From contig NZ_GL476318.1 in NCBI RefSeq assembly GCF_000148725.1, forward strand, positions 62,001 through 126,000: a DNA stretch of 64,000 bases, read 5' to 3'. The stretch comes from Roseibium sp. TrichSKD4 (GTDB lineage: Bacteria > Pseudomonadota > Alphaproteobacteria > Rhizobiales > Stappiaceae). This document shows positions 2,998 to 42,314 of the stretch, piece by piece. How positions within the stretch are numbered: position 1 is the stretch's first letter; the number at the start of each line of letters is the position of its first letter. The position numbers and the translations under genes were made by a program. The notes under the pieces were generated by a model. It searched no databases. It was given only the letters and a program-made list of their open reading frames with translations, and had not been told where the DNA came from.

Positions 2998-5900
2998 ATG
3001 AGCGGACAATGGGATTTCTGGATCGATCGTGGCGGCACCTTTACCGATATCGTGGGCCGCGCTCCGGATGGCTCGGTTCACCCGCACAAAGTGCTGTCTG
3101 AGAACCCGGAAGCCTACCGGGATGCAGCCATTCAAGGCATTCGGGAACTTATGGGCCTAAAAGACGGCGCGAAAATCCCGTCAAATCAGGTCGCAACCGT
3201 CAAGATGGGCACCACCGTTGCCACCAATGCGCTTTTGGAACGGAAAGGTGAGCGCACGGCCCTGTTCATCACCAAGGGTTTTCGCGATGCGCTGGAAATC
3301 GGCTATCAGGCGCGACCAGACATTTTCGCCAAAGAAATCATCAAGCCGGAACTGCTCTATGAGGCCGTGTACGAGATCGATGAACGGGTTCGTTCAGACG
3401 GCACCGTAGAAATTGAGCTTGATGAGGATGCCGCGTATCAAGATATGCGCCGCGCCTTCAACGACGGTATTCGGTCAATCGCAATCGTCCTCATGCATTC
3501 CTACGCCTACCAGACGCACGAGCAGCGCCTTAAAGCGATTGCAGATTCTGTCGGTTTCCCGCAAATTTCCGTTTCTCACGAAACCTCTCCGCTGATGAAA
3601 CTCGTCGGACGCGGCGACACGACGGTTGTGGACGCATACCTGTCCCCGATCTTGCGGCGTTATGTGAACCAGGTTCAGGAAGAACTCGGCCAAGGCCCAC
3701 GCTTGATGTTCATGCAATCATCTGGCGGATTGACAGCTGCCGAACTTTTTCAGGGAAAAGACGCCATATTGTCCGGCCCGGCAGGCGGAGTTGTCGGCGC
3801 TGTTGAAACCTCCAAGATGGCTGGGTTCGACAAGATCATCGGCTTTGACATGGGCGGCACCTCAACCGATGTCTGCCATTTTGACGGCGATTATGAACGC
3901 GCGTTCGAGACAGAGGTCGCCGGTGTTCGCATGCGTGCGCCAATGATGATGATCCACACGGTTGCAGCAGGCGGTGGCTCCATCCTCCACTACAAGGACG
4001 GCCGCTTTCAGGTTGGACCAGATTCCGCTGGCGCCAATCCGGGACCAGCCTGCTATCGGCGTGGCGGTCCACTGACCGTGACCGATGCCAACCTGATGAC
4101 CGGCAAACTGGCCCCTGAATTTTTCCCGAAAATCTTCGGCCCGAACCGCGACGAGCCCTTGGATGCCGACGTGGTACGCCAAAAATTCGGCGCCATGGCC
4201 AAAGAGATAAATGACGGACGCTCTGCAGAAGACGTCGCAGAAGGGTTTTTGAAAATCGCCGTTGAAAACATGGCCAACGCGATCAAGAAAATTTCGGTCC
4301 AGCGCGGCTATGATGTCACCGAATACGCCCTTACCTGCTTTGGTGGTGCTGGTGGCCAAACCGGTTGCCGGGTTGCAGACACGCTCGGCATGACCACCGT
4401 CATTCTCCACCCCTTCTCCGGCATCCTTTCAGCCTATGGAATGGGTCTGGCGGACATTCGCGCCAACCGCCAACAAGCGGTCGTCAGGCAGTTGGACGAT
4501 GCCATTTTGAAGGACTTGCACAGCCTGCAGGCAGAACTGGCAAAAACAACGGAAGCGGAGCTTGAACAACAAGGGATAGACGACCAAAACCGCCGAACCG
4601 TAACCACAGCTCATCTGCGTTATGACGGAACCGACACCCCCCTTCCGGTGACATTAGCCGATGTTGAAACGATGCGTGCAGCCTTTGAAGACGCGCACCG
4701 CCAGCAATTCGGCTTTGCCTATGAGAACAAGCCGATTGTCGTGGAAGCCCTAGAGGTGGAAACCGCAGGCGGTGGCGCAGGCCTGAGCGAGCCGGACATC
4801 AGCCTTGTCACTGACAGCCCCAAAGCCTCCCATGATGCAAAAATGTTTGCAGATGGGATCTGGCGCGATGCCGGCATTTACAAACGCAGCAGCCTGAAGC
4901 CCGGCATGAAAGTGAAAGGCCCTGCCCTTATTATCGAGCCACACGCAACCATTGCAGTTGAAGATGGCTGGCAGGCAGAGGTGAACGCCAAGGACCACGT
5001 CATATTACGCCGGATCACCACCCTGCACCGTTCCAAGGCGATTGGAACCAAGGCCGACCCGGTCATGCTTGAGGTGTTCAACAACCTCTTCATGTCGATT
5101 GCAGAACAGATGGGTGTGACACTTCAAAACACCGCCTACTCCGTCAACATCAAGGAACGGCTCGATTTCTCCTGCGCCGTTTTTGATGCGGGTGGAGCAT
5201 TGGTCGCCAATGCGCCGCATATGCCAGTGCATTTGGGCTCAATGGACCGCTCCGTGGAAACGGTCATCAAGCTGAACCAGGGCAAGATCAAGCCTGGCGA
5301 CGTCTTTGCGCTGAACGCTCCTTACAATGGCGGCACCCACTTGCCCGACATTACCGTTGTCTCCCCGGTTTTTGATGATGCTGGCAACAAAATCCTGTTT
5401 TGGGCAGCTTCGCGTGGTCACCATGCCGATGTTGGCGGCTCTGCTCCCGGTTCCATGACCCCACGGGCCACTAATGTGGATGAAGAAGGCGTCCTGTTCG
5501 ACAATTTCAAAATTGTCGATGAGGGCCGTTTCTGCGAACAGGAACTGATCGAGCTTTTGACCGATCACGCCTATCCGGCGAGAAACCCGCACCAGAACGT
5601 AGCTGACCTGTCTGCCCAGATTGCCGCGAATGAAAAAGGCATTCAGGAATTGCGGAAGATGGTTTCCCATTTCGGCCTCAGCGTGGTTCAAGCCTATATG
5701 GGACACGTGCAGGACAACGCTGAGGAGAGCGTACGGCGGGTTATTTCGGCACTAAAAGACGCCGAATATTCCTATCCCACTGATCAGGGGGCCGAGATCA
5801 AGGTCAAGATCACGGTCAACAAGGAAAAGCGCGAAGCCACGGTCGACTTCACCGGAACAACCGATGTGAAACCGAACAACTTCAATGCGCCGGAACCGGT

Positions 5901-8167: not shown

Positions 8168-8286
8168 TAAGAGTGCGAAAAAGATTATTTTCTCTTAATT
8201 GGAGCAAAAAAAGGCAATAATAAGCTATTTAACTTACTTAATAGGCAGGAATTCGAAGAAAATATTCGCCGTTTTCGATATTTATA

Positions 8287-34586: not shown

Positions 34587-35942
34587 ATGGCCATTACGAT
34601 CAAACTGGACGACAAGACAAATTTTCCGGCTGAGAGCACCTCGGCAGTATGGGTTCCCGGATGGATTAACGGCGGCGATGCCAGTACATTCCAAACCCTT
34701 CAGGCGAATGGAAGCTTTGGCCCGCCTTCCGCCACTCTACCATTTTACAAGGTGGAGAACCTTGCCGAAATAACGCTAGTTTCGGCAACGAATGGATCAG
34801 ATCGGCTTGTTTTCGTGGCCAGCGACACAACGCCAGGTGATTTGAACATCACGGATCATTCTCCGGTTGAATACGCTCAATATCCTTATGCAGGAGAGCC
34901 GACGAGCACCGTAACCCCGCCCGGCCCGTTTGATATTTTCGAGTTCAGCATGGATGCTGAGTTCAACTTGAGCGCCGTCAGCGGGTTCGGCCTGAACCTC
35001 TCCTTCTCCGCAACGCCTGATGGGAGCAGCACAGCGCAGAATTTCGGTGTTCAGCCAAACATCACCCGCGCCGAGATTGCCAGCGCTTGGTCGTCATTCA
35101 TCGTCAATGAAACAAAGACTTACCCTCCTGCAGCTGCATTTGAAGGGCTGCTATATAAAGAACCGCTTCCCGGCCAAAGCTGGATACCTCCACTAGTCGG
35201 CGATCAGTTTTTCGCGCTCTGCGACCCCAACGACATGCTGGCAGCGAGGTCAAACAACTACACCGGAACCACGAGCGATCCGCTGGCTACCTTCTGGGAC
35301 AAAACGCTGGATGATTTCTTTTGCGAGGGAAATTTCCTGTCCATCAATCTTGGATCAGACACCGCTCAAAACATCTATCAAGGTATGGCGCGGGCTATGG
35401 TCAACCCGAAAACCGGTGTGCAATCTGTCGCCTATCACCTGTCGAATGGAAGCAATTCCTATTCATTCTTCAAGCCGGTTTCCGCACAAGGCACCTCACC
35501 CGGCCTGACGGGGGCCGCCTATGTGTTCCAACAAGCTTTTGGCGACCTGACACCCGATGGAAGTAATGGAGATGCCGGACTACTGCAGGACTGCATTTGG
35601 GAAGCTCTGTGCCGAGGTGTGGCTCTCGATGGCGTGTTGGAAGTCTGTGCCACAGACGCCTCCTTGAGCGGTTACACCACCCGTGCCTGGAACAACTGGA
35701 AAAACTGGTATCCATCCGGAAAGCCATCGCATTTTTACGCCAAGTTCCTGCATTGCAGCGACAAGGATGGCAATGACAGCCGTATTACCGGCAAACCACC
35801 GATCTTCTACGGCGGCGCGGCTTACGGGTTCTCGATGGACGAAACCCCAATCGGCCCCTATTCCGGCCCCAACGTGCCCTCCAAAACCGTCGGGTCTATC
35901 TCAAACGGCACAGTTACAATCACCGTCGGGCCTTGGGGGTGA
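34587..35942 (+). CDS. GH64-like (thaumatin-like fold) protein, possibly non-catalytic
   Basis: A 451-residue protein that I align by eye to GH64 beta-1,3-glucanases: FDIFEFSMDAEFNLSAVSGF, SYSFFKPVSAQ, a variable loop, AAYVFQQAFGD, LLQDCIWEALCRGV, FYAKFLH and AAYGFSMDETP fall in the family's order. In the laminaripentaose-producing enzyme the catalytic pair is Glu154 and Asp170. Here Glu119 matches the first, but the second position is Ser132. No signal peptide is present, although relatives are secreted. AAGGA lies 6 bases before the ATG. It may be a glucan-binding protein, a diverged enzyme or an intracellular protein. The alignment rests on memory. Confidence 0.55.
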   Translation: MAITIKLDDKTNFPAESTSAVWVPGWINGGDASTFQTLQANGSFGPPSATLPFYKVENLAEITLVSATNGSDRLVFVASDTTPGDLNITDHSPVEYAQYPYAGEPTSTVTPPGPFDIFEFSMDAEFNLSAVSGFGLNLSFSATPDGSSTAQNFGVQPNITRAEIASAWSSFIVNETKTYPPAAAFEGLLYKEPLPGQSWIPPLVGDQFFALCDPNDMLAARSNNYTGTTSDPLATFWDKTLDDFFCEGNFLSINLGSDTAQNIYQGMARAMVNPKTGVQSVAYHLSNGSNSYSFFKPVSAQGTSPGLTGAAYVFQQAFGDLTPDGSNGDAGLLQDCIWEALCRGVALDGVLEVCATDASLSGYTTRAWNNWKNWYPSGKPSHFYAKFLHCSDKDGNDSRITGKPPIFYGGAAYGFSMDETPIGPYSGPNVPSKTVGSISNGTVTITVGPWG

Positions 35943-36061: not shown

Positions 36062-37714
<1,653 letters not shown>

Positions 37715-37947
37715 GGGGCTCCGCTTCTCCACGTTTTTGGATGTTGGGATTCTGCTCAAAATCTGCCGCGTGTTTTATGCGAAACTTGGCGTCGGGGCAA
37801 TGGGGGAGATGCGAGCCAATTGGTGAAGACTAGCGGAATGAGCCCAAACGCCAACTCCATCCGCCGCAAAGCCTCCAATTTTTTGAGTAATCAATATTCC
37901 CGCCAAAATACGCCAAACCATTTTTTTAGCGTGTTCAACCATCCCCC

Positions 37948-38080
37948 GATAGATCACGGTATGGATCCCGGATCACGCTGCGCTTGTCCGGGATGACGAT
38001 GTGAAGGGGATGCGTGGGGATGTACCCAGCCTCAATTGTCATCCCATGGCTATGACCATGGGATCCATTCCGTTTTCTTT
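37948..38080 (+). repeat. Direct repeat A (about 130 bp) left of the repeat-protein gene
   Basis: The sequence from GATAGATCACGGT to CATTCCGTTTT recurs at 40434-40565 in the same orientation with about a dozen differences. Each copy holds two palindromes: CCCGGATC...GTCCGGG and ATCCCATGG-CTATGA-CCATGGGAT. It looks like an intergenic REP-type element. Much of the 521-bp gap 37715-38235 is this copy; the remainder shows nothing else I can name. Confidence 0.85.
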
Positions 38081-38235
38081 CAGCTTGCTCAGGAAACCAA
38101 ATGAACCAGTGAAATCATCCTGTCCGATCAACTCACATCTGAAACCTGCAAGATACGGGAAAACCGACCACATGAGATTGTTTGATGAGCGCCATCAACC
38201 TACGCTGGCCAAAATTTCTTTTACGAGATTGAGAC

Positions 38236-40389
38236 ATGTTGATTACGTCTTACGCCCAAATCGAGGAACTGATTGAAAACGGCGAGCTCACTAACGCTGA
38301 GCAAAAACTGCTAGAGGGCTGCAAAAATGGCAGGTTAGTCGTCGTTGGCGATGGTCAACTTCCAAATAAACGTACGGAAGAAAACGCAGTTCGTGCAGGT
38401 TTGCTGCGTTATCTTATGTGCGGCGGATGCGAGACCTATCGGCCGCATGATCACGGTGTGGAACTCGTCGGGGCATGGGTCGAAGGAGAGCTGGATATCG
38501 AATTCGCCAAGACAAGGGGCAACAATCATCTCGTTGCTTGTTCGTTTCATGAAGTAATCAACGCCTTTCAGATGGTCGGCGATGCAATCAACCTGACCAG
38601 AAGCCGGTTTCCGGGATTGTTCGCCCAAGGCGCGAAGATCGCTGGCGGTGTTTTCCTGCGTGAGGCCGTGTCGGAGAGCAGAGTCTCTTTTTCAGGCGCG
38701 AAAATCGCAGAGGACGTATTCCTGAGCGACACCACATCAGAGGGCACAGTCTCTTTTGCGGGCGCCGAGATTGGCGGCCAGTTTTCTTGCAATAAAACCA
38801 AGCTGAAGGGCGACGACGGCAAGGCCCTGAACGCCCAAGGCGCGAAGATCACTGGTGACGTTTTCCTGCACGAGGCCACATCAGAGGGCGAAGTCTCACT
38901 TGCGGGCGCGGAGATTGGCGGACAGCTATCATGCAATAAAGCCAAGCTGAAGGGCGGCGACCACAAGGCCCTGAATGCCCAAAGCGCGAAAATCGCACAG
39001 GGTGTTTTCCTGACCAACACCATATCAAAGGGCGAAATCTCTTTAGCGGGCGCCGAGATTGGCGGCCAGCTTTCTTGCCATGAAGCCAAACTGAAGGGTG
39101 GCAACCACAAGGCTCCGAATGCACAGGGTGCGAAGATCGCAAGTGATGTTTTCCTGACCGACGCCATATCGGAAGGCGAAGTCTCTTTTGCGGGCGCTGA
39201 GATTGACGGCCGGCTTGCATGCGAAAACGCCATACTGGCGGGCAACACGGGCGATGCACTCAACGCCCAGCGGCTGGTAGTGAAAGCAGGCTTTTTCTGG
39301 CGAGAGGTAGACTCTGTTTCAGGTTTAATTGATCTCGCCTCCGCTCATGTGGGCGATTTGGTAGACGACAAGGAAAGTTGGGACAAGGTTGAACAGCTAG
39401 AGCTCTCGGGCTTCACGTATGACACGCTGCATGGCTCGACGGATTTGGCGTTTCGAAAAGACTGGCTCAAAAAGGGTGCCAGACCAAACGGAGCGTTTCA
39501 CCCCCAACCCTATCAGCAATATGCCAAGGTGTTGCGGACCAGCGGGCACAGGGCTGAGGCAAGGGACATACTGGTTGAAAAGGAAATTCAGCAGCGGCGG
39601 GCACGGCGCAGTGTCTGGCGAAACTCCATCCGATTTATGCGGTCTCTAAATAACCTCATCCAGCAGAAAGGTAGAGACGCGGAAACTCGAAGAGCAGCAG
39701 CGCAAACAGCCGCTGCCGCCGCTGCTGAAGCCCCTGAAATTCGTGCGAAATTTAATGACGTTTTCTTTAGGCGCTTCGGATCTAACCCAACACGCTCCGA
39801 CTGTGATGCTTTTGAAAACCGGTGGGCACAGCAGGATTTCCAAAATCAGTTGCTTATTGACCGTTCTTGGAATGCCCTGTGCATTTCGTGGAACACAATC
39901 TGGGATCGTGTGCTGAGATTTGTTGCAGGATATGGCTACAAACCCTGGCGAAGCTTAGGTTGGCTTTTCGCCATGATCATGATCGTAGCTGGATTGGCCC
40001 ACCTGACTTGGCAAGCCGGTGATTTCGCGCCCAATTCCGATGTAATTCTGACATCGGAAAACTGGAAGTCCTATGCCGATGCAGTGAACGAAGACGGCGC
40101 GCCCACCTATGCCAATCCGGCAGAAGTCCGGTCCAAAACGCCAGATCAACAAGCCGTTGGTCACGGACGTGATTATGAGACCTTTGACTCCATTTTCTAT
40201 GCCATGGACGTGGTCGTCCCGATCATTGATCTCGGCCAGACAGATGCCTGGGCTCCCTCAACCTCCCGTGGGCAAACAGGCTTCTGGATGTTTTATCTGC
40301 AAAAAGTCTTCATCATTCTCGGATGGGTCATCACCGCCATCGCTGCCGCAGCGATTACCGGCATTATTCGGAACAATGACGAGGTTTGA
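38236..40389 (+). CDS. Repeat protein with two-helix channel-like C-terminus
   Basis: A 717-residue protein of unknown function. Residues 1-131 are globular (LLRYLMCGGCETYRPHDHG, GVELVGAWVEGELD). Residues 132-345 are a half unit and four 48-residue repeats (GAKI...VFL...GEVSLAGAEIGGQLSC...LNAQ), likely a beta-solenoid. A helical, Ala-rich linker (about 425-540) follows. The C-terminus has one membrane helix (572-594), a loop of about 90 residues whose end reads FYAMDVVVPIIDLGQTDAW (655-672), and a second helix (684-711). This helix-loop-helix layout recalls two-helix ion channels, with PIIDLGQ where a filter would lie. Related proteins are often labelled membrane-associated oxidoreductase without evidence. 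The start has only a weak GAGA upstream. Confidence 0.7.
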   Translation: MLITSYAQIEELIENGELTNAEQKLLEGCKNGRLVVVGDGQLPNKRTEENAVRAGLLRYLMCGGCETYRPHDHGVELVGAWVEGELDIEFAKTRGNNHLVACSFHEVINAFQMVGDAINLTRSRFPGLFAQGAKIAGGVFLREAVSESRVSFSGAKIAEDVFLSDTTSEGTVSFAGAEIGGQFSCNKTKLKGDDGKALNAQGAKITGDVFLHEATSEGEVSLAGAEIGGQLSCNKAKLKGGDHKALNAQSAKIAQGVFLTNTISKGEISLAGAEIGGQLSCHEAKLKGGNHKAPNAQGAKIASDVFLTDAISEGEVSFAGAEIDGRLACENAILAGNTGDALNAQRLVVKAGFFWREVDSVSGLIDLASAHVGDLVDDKESWDKVEQLELSGFTYDTLHGSTDLAFRKDWLKKGARPNGAFHPQPYQQYAKVLRTSGHRAEARDILVEKEIQQRRARRSVWRNSIRFMRSLNNLIQQKGRDAETRRAAAQTAAAAAAEAPEIRAKFNDVFFRRFGSNPTRSDCDAFENRWAQQDFQNQLLIDRSWNALCISWNTIWDRVLRFVAGYGYKPWRSLGWLFAMIMIVAGLAHLTWQAGDFAPNSDVILTSENWKSYADAVNEDGAPTYANPAEVRSKTPDQQAVGHGRDYETFDSIFYAMDVVVPIIDLGQTDAWAPSTSRGQTGFWMFYLQKVFIILGWVITAIAAAAITGIIRNNDEV
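38695..39270 (+). repeat. Four in-frame 144-bp tandem repeats
   Basis: Four consecutive 144-bp units encode the 48-residue repeats at residues 154-201, 202-249, 250-297 and 298-345 of the channel-like repeat protein; a half unit precedes them. DNA identity between units is high enough (for example in GCGAAGATC and GGCGCGGAGATTGGCGG) to allow unequal recombination. Confidence 0.85.
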
Positions 40390-40433
40390 AATTATCAAAG
40401 CCCGTTTTTCTGCAGAGAGCTCAACTATCCGCA

Positions 40434-40565
40434 GATAGATCACGGTAAGGATCCCGGATCGCGCTGCGCTTGTCCGGGACGACGATGTGATGGGGATGCG
40501 GGGGCTTTGCCCTGCCCCAATTGTCATCCCATGGCTATGACCATGGGATCCATTCCGTTTTTTTT
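40434..40565 (+). repeat. Direct repeat B (about 130 bp) right of the repeat-protein gene
   Basis: Second copy of the element at 37948-38080, same orientation, starting 45 bp past the repeat-protein stop. Both palindromes are preserved. Together with copy A it brackets a single gene; a recombination between them would remove about 2.49 kb. Confidence 0.85.
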
Positions 40566-40667
40566 CAACTGGTGAAGGTGCTCGGGGGAACGTCACGTTA
40601 TATATCCGCGATCAAATCGGGGAAGACGATCGAGGCTGGGGCACGATCCCGGCAAAACACTCAGGCC

Positions 40668-40710
40668 GTCATCCCGGACAAGCAAAGCGCGATCCGGGAT
40701 CCCCATTCCG
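40668..40710 (-). repeat. Third, partial REP-like element in opposite orientation
   Basis: GTCATCCCGGACAAGC...GCGCGATCCGGGATCC corresponds to the first palindrome of copies A and B read on the other strand. It lies in the same gap (40390-40805), which otherwise shows no gene. Confidence 0.75.
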
Positions 40711-40805
40711 ATCACTGTCAGCTTGCTCATACATTTCAAGACAGCTTGTGATTTGGACCACGGAACCCTGTCGCCAATGACGCCCAAAACCACAACCCGT
40801 TTTCC

Positions 40806-42224
40806 CTAAACCCACGGCACGTTCTCCACCCAGTTTGTAGCCTGATGATAGGCGTGGCCGAGTCGGAGGAGTTTGAGGTCCGCGCCTTTGGGGCCGATCA
40901 GTTGCAAGCCCATAGGAAGACCCGATGCAGTGAAACCGACGGGCACGTTGAGCGCAGGCACACCGACCAAAGAGGCAGGAATGACGACTTCCATCCACTG
41001 GTGATAGGTGGCCATGGGCCTCCCCGCAATCTCGGACGGCCAATGGGTGTCTGCATCAAACGGAAACACCTGAGCGGACGGAAGCGCCAGAACGTCAAAC
41101 CGCTCAAAAGCGCGAGCAAGCTGCCTGTACCAGCTGGAGCGGACTGTGCTGGCTTCAAATACCTCCATGCTCGACAGCGCAAGACCGCACTCGATCTCCC
41201 AAATGGCTTCTGGCTTGAGTTTCGCCCGCGTTGACGGTTTGTCATAAAGCGCCTTGAGACCGCCTGCAATGGCAAAAGAGCGCAAGGTGAGCCACGAGTT
41301 CCAAATCTTCTCCGGGGCGAAGGAGGGAACAAACGGCTCGACCTCAACCCCAAGATCGGCGAACGCGGCAAAGGCCCCTTCGCACTGATCCAGCACACCA
41401 GCCTCCATGGCATAATGTCCGTTCCAATCGCCAATCCAGCCGATCTTGAGGCCCTTCACGTCACCATCTAGGAGGCCGGTGAATTTGGGTACCTCAGCGT
41501 GGGAATGCGGCAAACGCGGATCAGGACCGGCGATCACATCCATCAAAAATGCTAGATCCTCCACGGATCGGGCCATTGGGCCATCCGTCGCCAGCTGATT
41601 GAAAAAGCTCTCTTTTCGCGGATCACCCGGCACCAGCCCAAAGGTTGGGCGAAAACCATAGACATTGCAGAACGCTGCCGGATTGCGCAGTGAGCCCATC
41701 ATGTCGGACCCGTCAGCAAGCGGCACCAGACGCGCTGCTAATGCAGCGGCTGCTCCGCCCGATGACCCGCCCGCCGTTTTGGTTATGTCATAAGGATTGC
41801 GCGTGACCCCATGAACCGGATTGTAGCTCTGCGAGCCCATGCCGAATTCCGGCGTATTTGTCTTGCCAATGAAGATCGCCCCTGCGGCGCGCAAACGTTC
41901 AGCCAAAAGGTCATCTTGTGCTGGCACATGATCGGCAAAGATCGGAGACCCATGGGTGGAGCGCAGGCCCTTCACTTCCACCAGATCCTTCACCACAAAG
42001 GGAAGACCGCGGAGCGGGCCCGTTCGAGGGGTATTGTCTGCCGCCTTTGCGGCCGCCATCAGCGTATCCCGGTCTGGCATAGAGACAATAGCGTTGATCG
42101 CCGGATTAACCGCATCAACCCGCGCCAACACCGCCTCCATCACCTCCGCACAGGATATTTCTTTCCGCACCATCAACCTCAAGAGGTCCACAGCATCGAG
42201 AAGAGTAAGGTCGGTCGCAGTCAT
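40806..42224 (-). CDS. Amidase-signature family amidase
   Basis: A 472-residue hydrolase with the amidase signature. The catalytic Lys is in FVVKDLVEVKG, the cis-Ser in TAGGSSGGAAAALAARLVPL and the nucleophile Ser in ADGSDMMGSLRNPA region, consistent with the Ser-cisSer-Lys triad. It hydrolyses amides or acts in transamidation; lack of GatB or GatC nearby argues against GatA. The start at MTATDLTLLDAVDLL is placed by similarity; an upstream start at 42296 would add 24 atypical residues and no ribosome-binding site supports either. It is last in a minus-strand run with a GNAT and two FAD oxidoreductases, suggesting catabolism of an amide or amine. Confidence 0.85.
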   Translation of the reverse strand: MTATDLTLLDAVDLLRLMVRKEISCAEVMEAVLARVDAVNPAINAIVSMPDRDTLMAAAKAADNTPRTGPLRGLPFVVKDLVEVKGLRSTHGSPIFADHVPAQDDLLAERLRAAGAIFIGKTNTPEFGMGSQSYNPVHGVTRNPYDITKTAGGSSGGAAAALAARLVPLADGSDMMGSLRNPAAFCNVYGFRPTFGLVPGDPRKESFFNQLATDGPMARSVEDLAFLMDVIAGPDPRLPHSHAEVPKFTGLLDGDVKGLKIGWIGDWNGHYAMEAGVLDQCEGAFAAFADLGVEVEPFVPSFAPEKIWNSWLTLRSFAIAGGLKALYDKPSTRAKLKPEAIWEIECGLALSSMEVFEASTVRSSWYRQLARAFERFDVLALPSAQVFPFDADTHWPSEIAGRPMATYHQWMEVVIPASLVGVPALNVPVGFTASGLPMGLQLIGPKGADLKLLRLGHAYHQATNWVENVPWV

Positions 42225-42314
42225 GGGAGGGTCCGTGTTGGTTAACAGGCAAGCATCAAAAGATGACCACAGCAACAGGCACTCCCGCAATGGCAATTTG
42301 AGCGAAAGGACCGG

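Follow-up and report, generated by a model that had tools for sequence, protein, structure and literature searches.

The locus described here lies in a 64-kb stretch of DNA (the window) and centers on a gene for a 717-amino acid (aa) protein, with a conserved ABC-F gene, which we take to be ettA, on its left and an amidase gene on its right (Table 1). As an earlier note on this DNA had proposed, the gene stands alone between two direct repeats; the other ORFs listed between the repeats are short or overlap the 717-aa ORF. The two repeats align over 151 columns with 90% identity (202 bits, spacing ~2486), for which the term ‘near-identical’ used in that note is a little strong. No IS, integron or phage carrying the gene was noticed by eye among the surrounding ORFs, and the plasmid collection contains no DNA resembling window positions 37760-40805. 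Promoter and terminator scans gave counts within the range of shuffled sequences (2 vs. 1.9, sd 1.5, and 6 vs. 4.4, sd 2.4, respectively), and the single Rfam match at E ≤ 1, to ncS16, has 20.5 bits, far under the gathering score of 48. At E ≤ 0.01, Pfam yields nothing for a 451-aa ORF adjoining ettA (34587-35942). Judged by sequence, the host is close to Roseibium; in a comparison of 10 genomes its EttA-type protein shares 97% identity with the R. denhamense (G003) protein and 89% with the Stappia (G001) one.

Table 1. Features at the locus, in window coordinates.
Feature	Coordinates	Strand	Description	Basis
ABC-F gene	36062..37759	-	left flank, conserved	
Palindromic repeat, copy 1	37935..38085		inverted arms at ends, 37948-37969 / 38060-38081	
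717-aa gene	38236..40389	+	N-terminal cap, pentapeptide beta-solenoid, helical linker, two-helix membrane hairpin	ORF, Pfam, AlphaFold2
Beta-solenoid	38461..39432	+	residues ~76-399	PF13576, 144-bp repeats, AlphaFold2 strands
First membrane helix (predicted)	39943..40014	+	residues 570-593	AlphaFold2; hydropathy window from 573
Re-entrant-type short helix and loop (predicted)	40189..40272	+	residues 652-679	AlphaFold2 helix 652-660, then loop; conservation, 49 rows
Second membrane helix (predicted)	40273..40359	+	residues 680-708	AlphaFold2; hydropathy window from 693
Palindromic repeat, copy 2	40421..40570		direct orientation, 90% identical to copy 1	
Third partial copy, repeat modules	40620..40702		inverted	
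Amidase gene	40806..42296	-	right flank	81% with G029

The 717-aa protein matches a single Pfam family, PF13576 (50.9 bits, cut-off 27), and nothing in NCBIfam at E ≤ 1. Its predicted fold is the right-handed beta-helix of this family, and 46 of the 49 family members in our alignment match the same Pfam family (E ≤ 0.1). The beta-solenoid of 48-residue repeats that had been read from the sequence is confirmed by a 144-bp period in the DNA (38696-39269, 77-80% identity), by PF13576 and by the strands of an AlphaFold2 model built on the 49-row alignment (mean pLDDT 91.5, pTM 0.81). These repeats vary in number between relatives (window, L117, L118, L121), and the window protein and its seven nearest rows range in length from 548 to 724 aa. 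In the model, helices (404-567) occupy the region between the solenoid and the membrane, and an outer segment (594-651) separates the membrane helices. A phmmer search with the full protein gave one chain, at E 0.45, and Foldseek found nothing at E ≤ 0.001 for the whole model; the VIA-align structural search with the whole model gave matches on the solenoid side only (residues 9-414). Members of this widespread, unnamed family combine pentapeptide repeats (PF13576) with a membrane hairpin of two helices.

The C-terminal helix-loop-helix described earlier is recovered in the model as a re-entrant membrane hairpin, with PIIDLGQ (residues 662-668) in its loop. The hairpin carries the motif Y-x-x-D-x-x-x-P-x-x-x-x-G-Q-x-x-x-W-x-P (residues 652-679), which has no Pfam match. 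Across the 49 rows, position 658 is always D or E and W672 is invariant, and P662 (47/49), Q668 (45/49) and G667 (40/49) are largely conserved; G696 and K/R712 are found in all 49. Two cysteines are present in the outer loop of 42 rows, an arrangement that fits a periplasmic location; in the remaining rows (the window, L009, L010 and L117-L120) there is one or none. Among 12 more distant plasmid proteins read for the motif, it is kept in six of seven Streptomyces members and lost in the seventh, kept in the Acaryochloris member with H replacing G, and departed from in all four Rhodococcus members examined. A PDB profile search with the hairpin reached E 0.82 at best, for CydC.

The earlier note had called the protein channel-like, and profile tests give no support for its membership of known channels. 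Twelve Pfam families match any of the 49 members at E ≤ 0.1, and Ion_trans_2 is absent from them. Of ten distant C-termini, one matches Ion_trans_2 below the cut-off (E 0.17; 12.3 bits vs. 22.5), in a stretch that takes in TVGYG plus the first membrane helix. Homology to K+ channels received hhalign probabilities of 0.3% and 1.2%. As a set, 16 C-termini reached 16.7 with the channel profile and at most 17.7 with single channels, where the top score among 64 single-sequence decoys was 17.2; six from Streptomyces reached 20.2 and at most 20.7, respectively, with a best decoy of 16.0, and their score spans six residues, TVGYG and its neighbor, ahead of the first membrane helix. Between the short and the last helix a TVGYG-type filter is missing, and PIIDLGQ is found there. 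K+ channels make up seven of the 50 Foldseek matches listed, all weak (probability 0.03-0.20).

TVGYG stands directly before the first membrane helix in seven of the 12 plasmid members (L247-L249, L253-L255, L257) and in four of the 49 rows of the main alignment, and the window has AGYGYKP. The full signature is probably a chance occurrence, since only Y566 (48/49), G567 and P570 (both 49/49) are conserved around this position. The literature, as far as its text was available to us (PMC7159879 and PMC8145042 included), holds no account of the family as a channel or beside Mrp, which is not proof of absence.

At window positions 37803-37812, ~50 bp upstream of ettA, the similarity to three sister genomes (G017, G048, G029) breaks off. 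At 45 ettA loci (44 genus genomes and Stappia), for which ORFs were called mechanically and are in part spurious, no constant first gene lies beyond ettA; a dehydrogenase-like cluster (23 ORFs) is common there, at varied distance. The R. denhamense contig stops inside ettA. A full-length match to the amidase is present in G029 alone of 45 genus genomes (DNA, E ≤ 1e-20), in a search that scored at most six candidates per genome and could thus miss diverged copies. G029 has no relative of the 717-aa protein (E ≤ 1e-10). Its contig C31 holds, in order, the amidase, repeat modules and the start of a SIR2-like ORF, and its contig C24 opens with the tail of a SIR2-like ORF and continues into ettA; the modules are on the amidase side only, with the contig gap between. 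We infer that these contig ends join and that a SIR2-like gene lies between ettA and the amidase in G029. A precise deletion of the 2.49-kb segment that leaves a single repeat was not seen; in G029 the site spans the contig gap. The absence of the gene from this sister, together with its occurrence in few genomes of the bacterial family (8 of 87, E ≤ 1e-25), supports the earlier view of an accessory gene at a variable site.

Five of 45 genus genomes contain a relative of the protein (E ≤ 1e-10). A contig scan with a four-sequence alignment and two peptide patterns yielded 113 relatives among 140 candidate stretches, of which the best 80 were retained. The plasmid collection adds 34 matching records, all with <60% identity (18 Streptomyces, 8 Rhodococcus, 1 Acaryochloris and the rest mainly alphaproteobacteria), and the protein family occurs in alpha- and betaproteobacteria, cyanobacteria and actinobacteria. 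In a tree of the 49 rows, the window protein is sister to the R. denhamense copy (support 98/98) within a set of eight rows, seven of Stappiaceae type and one from Rhizobium; this set is nested in 11 rows (100/99) that add one unplaced and two betaproteobacterial metagenome genomes. The window and R. denhamense copies share 56% identity vs. 97% for EttA, indicating that, unless evolution of the gene is very rapid, the two are more than a simple pair of recent orthologs. Both the anatomy of the protein and the patchy, accessory nature of its gene are well supported.

The first repeat has inverted arms at both ends (82% identity) and is therefore a palindromic, MITE/ERIC-like element. As single-stranded DNA, copies 1 and 2 fold somewhat better than shuffles (z -2.1 and -2.3, respectively). 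Two modules of the repeat, A and B, have three and two matches in the 64 kb (≤3 mismatches), all of them at the locus, with 0.00 expected by chance (100 shuffles); the third module A copy is inverted (40672-40702), and window positions 40523-40702 are found again beside the amidase in G029 (82.5%). The sister genomes G029, G003, G048 and G017 have 20, 28, 2 and 1 module matches, respectively, in counts where one palindrome can score twice. The earlier note had held that repeats dispersed over many unrelated loci would speak against its reading, and this is partly the case, for short modules in G029 and G003.

Bracketing was assessed in 500-bp flanks, where a gene counted if direct repeats scoring 45 bits or more lay on both its sides, with genes of G092, G029, the window and the clade loci as controls. 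Such repeats are present in 4 of the 12 clade members (window, L117, L204, L012) vs. 7 of 584 control genes, or 3 of the 115 controls whose gaps are no shorter than 100 bp; this clade was picked after the repeats had been seen, and its numbers are small. L011, short of upstream sequence, was omitted, and second copies of a genome already represented (L010, L206) were left uncounted. At 60 bits the figures are 3/12 (L204 is lost) vs. 5/584 and 3/115, and without the window, at the first threshold, 3 of 11 clade members remain (Fisher’s test, p = 0.0005 vs. the 584 and p = 0.009 vs. the 115). For the whole protein family, with some genomes counted twice, 4 of 89 places are bracketed vs. 2 of 405 controls, and without the window 3 of 88 vs. 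2 of 405 (p = 0.04). One of the four clade hits is only 31 bp long (48 bits). The clade repeats are unrelated to each other and all four are palindromic by eye; those of the window, L117 and L012 fold better than shuffles, and that of L204 does not. The G039 relative (L117) has its own, different direct repeat of ~110-130 bp on both sides, with no further match in that assembly (E ≤ 0.001).

In the betaproteobacterial relative L012 the palindromic element measures 73-76 bp (5826-5898 and 8181-8256; first copy z -6.1). Two other genes, both on contig C40 of G029, also lie between direct repeats: an MscS-type channel gene (L238 16810-19059; 233 bp, 94% identical) and an Imm11 immunity-type gene (L242 918-1556; ~230 bp, 85% identical).

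Repeat-mediated exchange of the gene is plausible on these data. The alternative is that an ordinary gene sits in a repeat-rich gap, where dispersed REP/MITE-type palindromes flank it by chance and take no part in its gain or loss. The bracketing may indeed be coincidence, because palindromic modules are dispersed in sister genomes; controls are bracketed at times too, and the elements sit within the divergent segment (limits 37812 and 40805) rather than at its limits. We consider this alternative rather unlikely; bracketing is enriched in the clade and brought about by unrelated repeats, one of which, in G039, is found nowhere else in its assembly.

The neighborhoods of relatives were searched with ten query proteins taken from frequent neighbors (tblastn, E ≤ 1e-8) at 92 loci, two of which, L010 and L121, are from one genome. 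Mrp antiporter subunits are encoded at 30 loci, an SLC13 permease at 40, AbgT at 38, an M20 peptidase at 28, RND pump parts at 40 and any of the ten at 76, where the families were chosen for their frequency, many loci share ancestry, and weak MrpA matches (e.g., L062) may represent different NuoL-type proteins. We assigned the names by reading the sequences, and only a part of them is backed by record annotation. None of the ten queries has a match in the 64 kb of the window. Mrp genes are near relatives in Stappiaceae (L008, L117-L120, with L120 at the locus edge) and Rhizobiaceae, on two distant branches of the tree.

Our preferred reading, with a probability of about 0.45, is that of an exchangeable accessory locus on the ettA side, encoding a membrane-anchored pentapeptide-repeat protein that probably serves ion or membrane homeostasis. 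This task is the best guess because transport genes surround many relatives. The place beside ettA would be an exchangeable accessory position, at which the palindromic elements may supply the homology through which the gene is gained, lost or exchanged. The beta-solenoid rod, presumably cytoplasmic, would be linked by the helices to the two membrane helices and the re-entrant hairpin. The hairpin might oligomerize into a pore or ion-handling module, a function suggested by predicted topology and conservation, and the solenoid might sense or dock a partner and gate the hairpin, with ion or membrane homeostasis under stress as the putative outcome.

The protein could instead be a membrane-anchored scaffold or regulator and no channel, in which the hairpin does no more than anchor the rod, and transporters or other partners are bound and tuned by the rod. 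Binding rods are known among pentapeptide repeat proteins, transporters are the recurrent neighbors, and channel profiles do not match; however, the conservation between the helices (D/E658, P662, Q668, W672) and the well-predicted short re-entrant helix both go beyond the needs of an anchor, and we hold this version to be rather improbable as well.

A defence role is possible. The solenoid would sense infection or a partner and the hairpin would open the inner membrane in an abortive response, with the ettA site acting as a defence slot. The patchy distribution of the gene is consistent with such a role, as are the SIR2-like pieces at the matching G029 contig ends, with moderate PADLOC matches (PDC-S21, E 2.5e-6; SIR2, E 0.0037) and weak Pfam matches under the cut-off (E 0.0041 and 0.14); PADLOC is, however, unspecific here, as the EttA-type protein matches 69 of its families (best E 8.8e-56). 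Fifteen annotated plasmid regions, from 18 taken of the 34 matching records (flanks of 2.5 to 6 kb), bear on the same point. Seven contain a transposase. In Rhodococcus qingshengii pLP337 (L249 488-6413) the relative has an AbiEi/AbiEii pair on one side and, with one short ORF intervening, a SIR2 family gene on the other, and the Acaryochloris relative has a caspase family gene nearby. These two are the only regions with a clear defence- or conflict-type neighbor, or three if a RES-domain gene ~5.5 kb from the relative in one region is counted, and most alphaproteobacterial loci have transport neighbors. The 717-aa protein itself matches no PADLOC family at E ≤ 1 and no phage record, and viral contigs contain no confirmed relative; we think a defence effector, among the possibilities raised earlier, unlikely.

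Ion or membrane homeostasis from an exchangeable locus remains our choice. Its boldest form would make the family ion pores of a type outside the channel profiles, with a D...P....GQ...W re-entrant loop and the pentapeptide rod as gate, and would have the gene travel as a single-gene cassette for which palindromic elements already in the genome provide the homology to land or be exchanged; we regard this combination as a long shot. Were the pore real, pentapeptide rods would gain a role as channel sensors. The hairpin matters as a conserved membrane motif without a Pfam match in a family that spans four bacterial groups, and, since unrelated palindromes bracket the gene repeatedly, the exchange of single genes through resident repeats can be put to the test here.

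The hairpin shares with two-helix K+ channels (PF07885, Ion_trans_2) the order of helix, short re-entrant helix, loop and helix. KcsA has an acidic residue in the short helix, as does the window hairpin. K+ channels have a TVGYGD-type filter in the loop, whereas the window loop lacks one and has no profile match above the cut-off; the likeness thus appears to be one of layout only. The window repeats resemble ERIC/REPIN/MITE-type elements, as these are commonly described, in their ~130-150 bp length, inverted ends, intergenic position and dispersed modules.

Several plasmid members are annotated as ‘oxidoreductase’ or ‘membrane-associated oxidoreductase’, and others as hypothetical. The Streptomyces plasmid proteins so named belong to the same family (tblastn), and those read share the linker and the hairpin motif; unlike the window protein they have a short outer loop, and their name has no support in our analysis. 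HglK of heterocystous cyanobacteria, as described in PMC8145042, has 727 aa with four predicted helices and 36 repeats. Going by that description, HglK and the window protein both combine a long pentapeptide solenoid with membrane helices in one chain; in HglK, as described there, the helices are N-terminal and the repeats C-terminal, whereas in the window protein the solenoid comes first and the two-helix re-entrant hairpin last.
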